From Arcobacter sp. LC1 (GTDB lineage Bacteria; Campylobacterota; Campylobacteria; Campylobacterales; Arcobacteraceae): a DNA stretch of 64,000 nucleotides. The stretch lies in the NCBI GenBank assembly GCA_021378565.1, contig JAACJU010000003.1:62001-126000 (forward strand), read 5' to 3'. Under the pieces are notes generated by a model. The model did not search any database. It saw only the letters and a list, made by a program, of their open reading frames with translations, and had not been told where the DNA came from. The position numbers and the translations under genes were made by a program. Shown piece after piece: positions 61,273 through 63,900 of this stretch. Each line of letters begins with the position of its first letter. Position 1 is the first letter of the stretch.

Positions 61273-62139
61273 ATGGTAATTAACACAAATGTAGCAGCAT
61301 TAAATGCGATTGAAAACGAAACTCTAGCTGGCAAAAGACTAACTCAATCTTTAGAAAAATTGTCTTCTGGTCTACAAATCAACAAAGCAAGTGATGACGC
61401 ATCGGGTCTTGCAATTGCGGATAAACTTAGAACTCAGGCCTCAGGTATCTCTCAAGCAATCGCAAATGGTAACTCAGCAGTTGCATTAGTGCAAATTGCA
61501 GATAAAGCTATGGCTGAAGATTCTAATATTTTAGATACTGTAAAACGAAAATTAGTTCAAGCAGCGACAGCTACCACTTCAGGAACAGGTAGAGAAGCGA
61601 TTGCTAAAGATGTTAGTAAGTTACTTCAACAATTAAATAATATTGCGGCACAAACAAACTACAATGGTATGTATCTTTTGCAATATTCAGCAGCTAATTC
61701 TACACAAGCAGCAGATACTTTGACTTTCCAAATGGGTGGGCTAGCAGCAAATACTATGAGTACAGTTTCAGGAGTTAGAGCAAATATTTCTGGACTTGGA
61801 CTTACAACTTTGCTTACACTAACTGAAATTGGTGGTGCAACTCTTGGCTTATCTGCAACACACGCAAGAGATCAAATGATTATAGTCGATCATGCTTTAT
61901 CAAAAATGAATGAATGGAGAGCTGATTTTGGTTCAACTCAAAATCAAGTTGAATCTGCGGTTAGAAATATGAATTCACAAGAAACAAATATTAAAGCTGC
62001 TGAGTCTGTTATTAGAGATGTTGATTATGCTGCAGAATCTGCTAAATTTTCTCAAGAAAGCATAATAGCTAAAGCTGGAACTTACGCGATTAGTCAATCA
62101 GCTCAAATTCAGAAAAATGTATTAAGATTATTACAATAA
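61273..62139 (+). CDS. flagellin 1, short form
   Basis: A 288-residue filament protein with the conserved N terminus MVINTNVAALNAIENETLAG, then LEKLSSGLQINKASDDASGL and GISQAIANGNSAVALVQIAD, and the C terminus (NMNSQETNIKAAESVIRDVD; AQIQKNVLRLLQ). It lacks the variable D2/D3 central domains of ~280 residues found in C. jejuni flagellins, so it is close to a D0/D1-only protein. Flagellin is secreted through the flagellar type III apparatus. The LQQLNNIAAQTNYNG segment replaces the TLR5 motif of enterobacteria, as in other epsilonproteobacteria. A second flagellin lies 888 bases downstream. Confidence 0.96.
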   Translation: MVINTNVAALNAIENETLAGKRLTQSLEKLSSGLQINKASDDASGLAIADKLRTQASGISQAIANGNSAVALVQIADKAMAEDSNILDTVKRKLVQAATATTSGTGREAIAKDVSKLLQQLNNIAAQTNYNGMYLLQYSAANSTQAADTLTFQMGGLAANTMSTVSGVRANISGLGLTTLLTLTEIGGATLGLSATHARDQMIIVDHALSKMNEWRADFGSTQNQVESAVRNMNSQETNIKAAESVIRDVDYAAESAKFSQESIIAKAGTYAISQSAQIQKNVLRLLQ

Positions 62140-62179: not shown

Positions 62180-62213
62180 CATACTAAAACTACAAAACGG
62201 TAGGTTTAGTATG
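62180..62213 (+). promoter_or_regulatory. hairpin covering the start of the 65-codon ORF
   Basis: CATACTAAAACTAC (62180-62193) pairs with GTAGGTTTAGTATG (62200-62213), 13 of 14 positions, with a 6-base AAAACG loop. It begins 40 bases after the flagellin 1 stop. The downstream arm holds both the best ribosome-binding sequence (GGTAGG) and the ATG at 62211. No U-tract follows, so it is not a typical terminator; sequestration of the start is suggested. Confidence 0.6.
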
Positions 62214-62408
62214 AATGAAATAAACGATAGCATACCTAAAAATATTATCAAAATTCAAAAAAAACTAGCTAGCTTTGAAAAAGGCTCTAGGAATTATGTA
62301 AAATATACAAAAATATTAAGAAAACATATAAAAAACCTTACTATGAAAAAAAGACTTCATTCAAATATCAAAACTATTGAAGAAGCTAAAAAAATATCTG
62401 GGTACTAA
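62211..62408 (+). CDS. 65-residue basic protein between the flagellins
   Basis: A small Lys/Ile-rich protein (starts MNEINDSIPKNIIKIQKKLA; contains FEKGSRNYVKYTKILRKHI and ends KTIEEAKKISGY) with predicted helical, coiled-coil-prone character. It has no signal peptide, membrane helix or cysteine. The ribosome-binding site GGTAGG and the ATG lie in the downstream arm of a hairpin. I do not recognise the family. Position between two flagellin genes suggests a flagellum-related role or a co-transcribed regulator, but a chance ORF is not excluded. Confidence 0.5.
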   Translation: MNEINDSIPKNIIKIQKKLASFEKGSRNYVKYTKILRKHIKNLTMKKRLHSNIKTIEEAKKISGY

Positions 62409-62465: not shown

Positions 62466-62495
62466 TTTTTTCTAGTGCTTTATTTTAAATAATCT
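62466..62495. repeat. 30-bp direct repeat, copy A
   Basis: TTTTTTCTAGTGCTTTATTT followed by TAAATAATCT. It matches 62570-62599 at 28 of 30 positions, 104 bases apart, in the flagellin 1-2 gap. Confidence 0.85.
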
Positions 62496-62569
62496 ATAAA
62501 AAACGGTTTTAGATTCTAAATATTTCTAAATATTTTAGTAAAAAATAAAAAACTACAATAATTCTTTTC

Positions 62570-62599
62570 TTTTTTCTAGTGCTTTATTTAAATTAATCT
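62570..62599. repeat. 30-bp direct repeat, copy B
   Basis: TTTTTTCTAGTGCTTTATTT followed by AAATTAATCT, the second copy of the 30-bp repeat in the flagellin gap. Confidence 0.85.
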
Positions 62600-62917
62600 G
62601 TACAATAATGCCTATATTAAAAATATTTTAGATAAATAATAAAAAATTAAAAGCTTTTGTCGCTGACTTAAACTATAATTTAATTCAAATTAATTCAAAA
62701 TTACTGCTATTTATTGCTAAATTTTTACTATTTCATAAAATTTTAGCTATCAAAAAACTCTTTTTATGATTAAAAACTCAAAATTTTCAAAAAATATTAG
62801 CTTTCAAAGCCCATGAAAACGCTAAAACACCTAAATTTACTAAACTTTTCTCAAAATTAGTTTATATTTAAGCTAAAATTTAGAATTGTAGTGTCATACT
62901 TTCATTAGTTATTTTAT

Positions 62918-63027
62918 AGGGGTTGATTAACTCCGAAGATTTACGTCTATGCTTGTGGATAATTACAAGAATGTATCAAGGCTTCCTGTCGTCAGGATAA
63001 ACTTTTTCATAATGGAAAGGATTTATT
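62918..63027 (+). promoter_or_regulatory. structured leader of flagellin 2 with CsrA-type GGA loop
   Basis: Three stem-loops lie in the last 110 bases before the ATG: GGGGTT-GATT-AACTCC (with one G-U), CTTGT-GGATAATT-ACAAG (62952-62969), and TCCTG-TCGT-CAGGA (62984-62997). The middle one shows GGA in an unpaired loop, the classic CsrA site form. AAAGGATT forms the ribosome-binding site with another GGA. CsrA/FliW control of flaA translation is known in C. jejuni. Confidence 0.55.
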
Positions 63028-63900
63028 ATGGTAATTAACACAAATGTAGCAGCATTAACTGCAATAGAACACGAAACAGAAACATCTAAAAAGCTAGGTC
63101 AATCTTTAGAGAAGCTATCTTCTGGTTTAGAAATCAACAAAGCAAGTGATGATGCGTCTGGTCTTGCAATTGCGGATAAACTTAGAACTCAAGCATCAGG
63201 TATAAAACAATCAATTGCGAATGGTAACTCAGCAGTTGCATTGATGCAAATCGCAGATAAAGCTATGGGTGAGCAGTCTACTATTTTAGATACTGTGAAA
63301 CAAAAATTAATCCAAGCAGCAACAGCAACTACTTCAAAATCCGGTAGGGACGCGATAGCTAAAGATGTTGGTAAATTGCTTCAACAATTAAATAATATTG
63401 CGGCACAAACAAACTACAATGGAATGTATCTTTTACAATATTCGGCAACTAGTCAAACATCAGCAGATGCACTTACTTTTCAAATGGGTAACTTAGCAGC
63501 AAATACTATGAGTACAGTTACAGGTGTTCGAGCAAATATTGATGGCTTAGGATTAACTTCGCTTAAAACATATGCTGATGTTGGAAATGCAACTTTAGGT
63601 GGAATAGGTTTAAGTGCTACACATGCAAGAGCTGAAATGGCAAGTGTTGATAAATCTTTATCGAAAATGAATGCATGGAGAGCTGACTTTGGTTCAACTC
63701 AAAATCAACTTGAATCTGCAGTTAGAAATATGGATTCGCAAGAAACAAACCTAAAAGCAGCTGAGTCTGTCATTAGAGATGTTGATTACGCATCAGAAAG
63801 TGCTACATTTTCAGAAGAAAATATCATAGCAAAAGCGGGAACTTACGCCATAAGTCAGGCTAATGCCACACAAAAAAATGTATTAAGATTGCTTCAATAA
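63028..63900 (+). CDS. flagellin 2, short form
   Basis: A 290-residue filament protein closely related to flagellin 1. The N terminus MVINTNVAALTAIEHETETS, LSSGLEINKASDDASGLAIA and the C terminus NMDSQETNLKAAESVIRDVD and ATQKNVLRLLQ are conserved; the central part differs (LGLTSLKTYADVGNATLGG). Like flagellin 1 it lacks large D2/D3 domains. The pair likely forms the filament, as FlaA and FlaB do in C. jejuni; which is the major one cannot be told. Its leader is more structured than that of flagellin 1, suggesting translational control. Confidence 0.96.
   Translation: MVINTNVAALTAIEHETETSKKLGQSLEKLSSGLEINKASDDASGLAIADKLRTQASGIKQSIANGNSAVALMQIADKAMGEQSTILDTVKQKLIQAATATTSKSGRDAIAKDVGKLLQQLNNIAAQTNYNGMYLLQYSATSQTSADALTFQMGNLAANTMSTVTGVRANIDGLGLTSLKTYADVGNATLGGIGLSATHARAEMASVDKSLSKMNAWRADFGSTQNQLESAVRNMDSQETNLKAAESVIRDVDYASESATFSEENIIAKAGTYAISQANATQKNVLRLLQ

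Follow-up and report, generated by a model that had tools for sequence, protein, structure and literature searches.

A family-specific small basic protein and a structured flagellin leader RNA as candidate parts of flagellin regulation in Arcobacteraceae

In Campylobacter jejuni, translation of flagellin is controlled by CsrA together with FliW via a two-hairpin leader of flaA (PMC4894983). Arcobacter butzleri was reported to have neither RpoN nor FliA, and its genome paper suggested a completely novel system; how Arcobacter times flagellin synthesis without these factors has been a question ever since (PMC2147049). Among the 104 genomes of the family Arcobacteraceae analyzed here, none had a FliA match above the curated cut-off and none had CsrA. 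We also observed that FliW was kept in 66 of the 104 genomes, none of them with a CsrA match; the FliW of Arcobacteraceae may have a partner other than CsrA.

The locus described below lies in a stretch of 64,000 nt from the genome of Arcobacter sp. LC1 (the window). A first-pass annotation had singled out a 65-codon ORF situated between two flagellin genes, with its ribosome-binding site and start codon inside a hairpin. The features of the locus are as follows.

61273-62139, plus strand: flagellin 1, leaderless (PF00669 and PF00700; no R1 leader match upstream)
62180-62213, plus strand: start-occluding hairpin predicted by folding, arms 62180-62193 and 62200-62213, not conserved in homologues
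62199-62204, plus strand: ribosome-binding site GGTAGG, partly paired inside the start hairpin
62211-62408, plus strand: gene for a 65-aa basic two-helix protein of an unnamed Arcobacteraceae-specific family (homologues, codon pattern, predicted fold)
62880-62899, plus strand: flagellin-promoter motif (TTAGAATTGTAGTGTCATAC; in relatives TTAAGAATTGGTGTGTCATA)
62915-62973, plus strand: core of the leader RNA, hairpins P1-P2-P3 (R1 match of 58.7 bits, E 2.3e-11; covariation)
62984-62997, plus strand: leader hairpin P4 (TCCTGTCGTCAGGA)
63008-63030, plus strand: predicted initiation-occluding hairpin of flagellin 2, in which CATAAT pairs with ATTATG and the ribosome-binding site lies inside
63028-63900, plus strand: flagellin 2 (ORF call and domain search)

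The ORF product of 65 aa has a net charge of +12, and the charge stays between +9 and +15 in eight homologues. A profile search found the family in 81 of the 104 Arcobacteraceae genomes (84 were listed, of which three were weak chance matches near E 0.005 and were excluded) and in none of the 352 other genomes of the order. Homologues across the family were 56-71% identical, with 20 invariant positions over 31 sequences, and the differences fell mostly on third codon positions (0.275, 0.175 and 0.438 for the first, second and third position, respectively). AlphaFold2 predicted two helices, 10-21 and 27-63, with a mean pLDDT of 90. Conservation of the frame in relatives was borne out, and the product, described in the annotation as basic and helix-prone, is basic and predicted to be helical. 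Sequence searches of Pfam, NCBIfam and PDB with the ORF gave nothing significant, including no significant match to the Pfam domains of FliS or FliW and none to PF02599 (CsrA/RsmA), whose fold is beta-rich whereas the ORF product is predicted to be all-helical; a fold search of PDB gave no significant structural match either (best E 0.84). Weak matches outside or beyond the family, in L025-L030, were rejected as homologues and turned out to be other proteins, e.g., a response regulator and ribosomal protein L11. On this comparative evidence the small ORF is well supported as a real gene, previously unnamed and confined to the Arcobacter family.

The linkage of the gene to the flagellum is strong: it was present in 81 of the 94 genomes with a flagellin domain and in none of the 10 genomes without one. 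In one genome without FlhA (G035) the frame of the homologue was broken (L024, G035:C69), apparently by decay of the gene along with the flagellum, or else by an assembly error. The suggestion of an undescribed flagellin-related regulator or chaperone fits these data, since the conserved gene is absent from every flagellin-less genome; the specific tie to neighboring flagellin genes did not hold strictly. Two arrangements were seen in relatives (neighboring genes were named by sequence resemblance). In one of them, a syntenic stretch, the ORF follows trmA and flagellin genes and precedes recA and enolase, while in the other it is located between a minus-strand cluster of pseudaminic/neuraminic-acid type and recA. 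In most genera the ORF lies between genes of flagellin-glycosylation type and recA, and most genomes have it close to recA and distant from flagellin. The recA gene itself was present in 26 of the 40-odd ORF loci; a recA-linked function was set aside because flagellin-less genomes lack the ORF.

In this genome the ORF follows flagellin 1, and no separate promoter of the flagellin type is seen for it; its transcript is probably a read-through from flagellin 1. Between the ORF and flagellin 2, an AT-rich gap carries two copies of a 36-nt direct repeat (TTTTTTCTAGTGCTTTATTT...) at 62466-62501 and 62570-62605, 104 nt apart.

The hairpin at the start of the ORF agrees in coordinates with its initial description, a 14-base stem with one mismatch that encloses GGTAGG and the ATG and begins 40 nt after the stop of flagellin 1 (ending at 62139) on the same strand. 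An inverted-repeat search showed arms complementary at 13 of 14 positions (93%) and a loop of 6 nt. The predicted fold (-13.7 kcal/mol) has 8 + 4 pairs because a 2x2 internal loop forms at the mismatch; its z-scores were -5.2 and -6.8 in two tight windows, and none of 200 shuffles reached equal stability. The ATG (62211-62213) is entirely within the outer stem. The window has 55 ORFs that encode 100 aa or more; compared with theirs, the start context of the small ORF was the most stable and occluded (-13.7 against a median of -2.4), followed by that of flagellin 2 (-8.9).

Among the homologous start regions that were folded, none had a comparably strong start-sequestering hairpin; they were typically weakly structured or had no structure, and in L067 and L068 an upstream hairpin falls short of the start. 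The hairpin is thus specific to this lineage, a long-branched genus represented by a single species in the genome set. A role of the hairpin as a conserved translational switch is not supported by these folds. Loss of the frame with retention of the hairpin had been named as the pattern that would speak against a coding function, and the reverse was seen, with the frame kept and the hairpin not.

In this genome the hairpin would limit translation of the ORF. It could instead serve mainly as a stabilizer of the 3' end of the flagellin 1 mRNA or as the 5' end of the ORF transcript, with no switch involved, a rather unlikely reading that is compatible with any role of the ORF protein. The position 40 nt past the flagellin 1 stop is consistent with it, and so are the lack of conservation and a scan of the interval from flagellin 1 to the ORF, which showed no terminator-like site. 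The stem has no T run on its 3' side. On the other hand, the pairing runs exactly through the ATG, a start more occluded than any other in the window, and in this it resembles the flagellin leaders, which are likewise predicted to hide a start.

These leaders emerged as a conserved block shared upstream of flagellins, which, when aligned, resolved into three consecutive hairpins joined by short conserved linkers. Double changes were seen in 11 of 15 pairs, with 97.2% of cells paired; none of 500 shuffles equaled this covariation, and sliding the partners abolished the pairing. With a covariance model the leader was detected in 76 of the 104 family genomes and in none of the 352 other genomes of the order. 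Two leaders were found in the genome under study, one at 62915-62973 ahead of flagellin 2 and another, just beyond the window, ahead of flagellin 3. Many loci that were read, this window included, had none before the first flagellin after trmA. All 35 leader copies checked were located 49-61 nt ahead of a flagellin ATG. In its compensatory changes and its fixed site before one class of genes, the leader conforms to what is expected of a structured cis-regulatory RNA.

On the 3' side of the core, either the ribosome-binding site or the start codon was predicted to be paired (single-sequence or consensus folds, for both types); this putative initiation-hiding region shows little covariation because its sequence is nearly invariant. 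We observed two designs of the 3' half in L084 and L096 versus L091 and L093: in one, CUCCCG...GGGUAAAUCUUUU would pair with the ribosome-binding site, in the other UGUCAUAAU would take up the start codon. The promoter motif upstream of the leader, TTAAGAATTGGTGTGTCATAATTC, is partly palindromic (62880-62899; also in L014, L020, L022 and L085) and is common to flagellins with and without a leader; it is possibly the site of an activator.

Neither the window nor ten relative loci had a match to Rfam at the gathering score, and no weak match was meaningful. The whole unit, made of three covarying hairpins plus a start-occluding hairpin, spans 62915-63030 here and, for example, L081:4578-4689, both unmatched in Rfam. 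The leader is well supported as a newly recognized RNA. It could have been sighted before, since the Arcobacter-only intergenic RNAs of an earlier survey of Arcobacter sp. L were given no names (PMC6429828), and the leader could be one of them: those candidates come from the same family and rest on the same type of evidence. The main text of the survey makes no mention of flagellin or motility.

The ORF and the leader tend to occur together. Over the 104 genomes, 73 had both, 8 the ORF only, 3 the leader only and 20 neither; for the FlhA-positive genomes the respective numbers were 71, 7, 3 and 12 (Fisher p = 4e-8, with phylogeny ignored in Fisher p-values). As a control, FliW showed no association with the ORF among flagellated genomes (p = 0.37, likewise) and was rejected as a partner of the ORF. 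The three leader-only genomes were MAGs of 74-87% completeness. The 8 ORF-only genomes included G035 with its broken frame and no FlhA, and most others were many-contig drafts; in G032 and G111 the flagellin contig was cut off or showed just a leaderless flagellin. A GlmU tree of the flagellated genomes gave 3 contrasts on well-supported branches (4 in all), all of them concordant, though 3-4 independent contrasts are too few for a sign test to reach significance. Within genus g6 the ORF and the leader covary in presence. In the six g12 genomes the leader starts 7-12 nt after the ORF match, and in the two g12 loci read closely (L014 and L015) the flagellin promoter motif is upstream of the ORF.

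The same pattern of co-occurrence could be produced by flagellin-targeted proteins of other kinds. The ORF product could be linked to the flagellum and still act on proteins, as a flagellin chaperone or as an adaptor for export or glycosylation, with the leader operated in some other way. The predicted two-helix fold would suit such a protein, most ORF loci neighbor flagellin or pseudaminic/neuraminic-acid-type genes, and the ORF is missing from every genome without flagellin. Still, we consider this unlikely given the strong and constant positive charge of the protein. Besides, the ORF is tied to the leader more tightly than to flagella, with 12 flagellated genomes lacking both, and FliW, which does bind flagellin, shows no tie to the ORF of the kind that the leader does.

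Less probable still is a leader that works as a small-molecule riboswitch, or that some unrelated protein reads, and that shares its range with the ORF only via joint loss. Three core hairpins joined by conserved linkers, followed by a start-occluding hairpin, do resemble an aptamer with an expression platform, and the independent contrasts are few; against this stand the genus in which the ORF directly adjoins the leader and the joint variation in presence within g6. A role of the protein as a DNA-binding transcription factor at the promoter motif TTAAGAATTGGTGTGTCATA is improbable: the protein is basic and helical, and the motif is found ahead of flagellins and, in certain genomes, of the ORF as well, but the flagellins of g2 keep the motif without the ORF. 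Since g2 has neither the ORF nor the leader next to its motif-bearing flagellins, the leader is favored over the promoter as the target.

Our preferred, still tentative, reading is that the ORF protein is an RNA-binding regulator of flagellin acting on the leader, similar in role to CsrA/FliW and unrelated to them. The small basic helical protein would regulate flagellin synthesis post-transcriptionally in Arcobacteraceae, with the leader (P1-P2-P3 plus the hairpin that conceals the start or the ribosome-binding site) as its likely target in front of flagellin genes other than the leaderless first one. Bound to the leader, it would either hold the flagellin start closed or open it, and synthesis of flagellin would be matched to need in a family without FliA or CsrA matches. 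The hairpin that covers the ORF start in this genome would act as a brake, holding ORF output at a low level compared with flagellin, and the ORF protein may exert this control on itself. The broader proposal, a shade more doubtful, is that Arcobacteraceae replaced sigma-28 and CsrA in flagellin control by a two-part system of their own, in which an orphan protein, basic and helical, reads the three-hairpin leader on secondary flagellin mRNAs and opens or closes their starts. For the missing regulator of flagellin in the Arcobacter family, the ORF is a good candidate. Two concrete parts are named, a family of proteins and a family of RNAs whose ranges match, and the question of flagellin timing becomes testable; if the proposal is true, translational control through a flagellin leader was invented independently.

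Among the known systems, the closest is CsrA-FliW at C. jejuni flaA and Bacillus subtilis hag, where a small protein acts via hairpins of the flagellin leader and one hairpin covers the ribosome-binding site, the arrangement proposed here for the Arcobacteraceae leader. The two RNAs differ in build: the C. jejuni leader is 45 nt long with two ANGGA loops (PMC4894983), whereas the Arcobacteraceae leader exceeds 100 nt and has three covarying hairpins with no conserved GGA loop. In the alignment, GGA was present at the edge of the P1 loop in about half of the leaders and was not conserved in the loops of P2 and P3, so the ANGGA in target hairpin loops that characterizes CsrA/RsmA sites is lacking. 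The proteins differ as well, the ORF product being unrelated to CsrA and predicted all-helical, and we infer its action on the leader. With respect to sigma-28/FlgM, the ORF-leader pair would fill the same slot, the timing of flagellin expression, but would do so by acting on mRNA.
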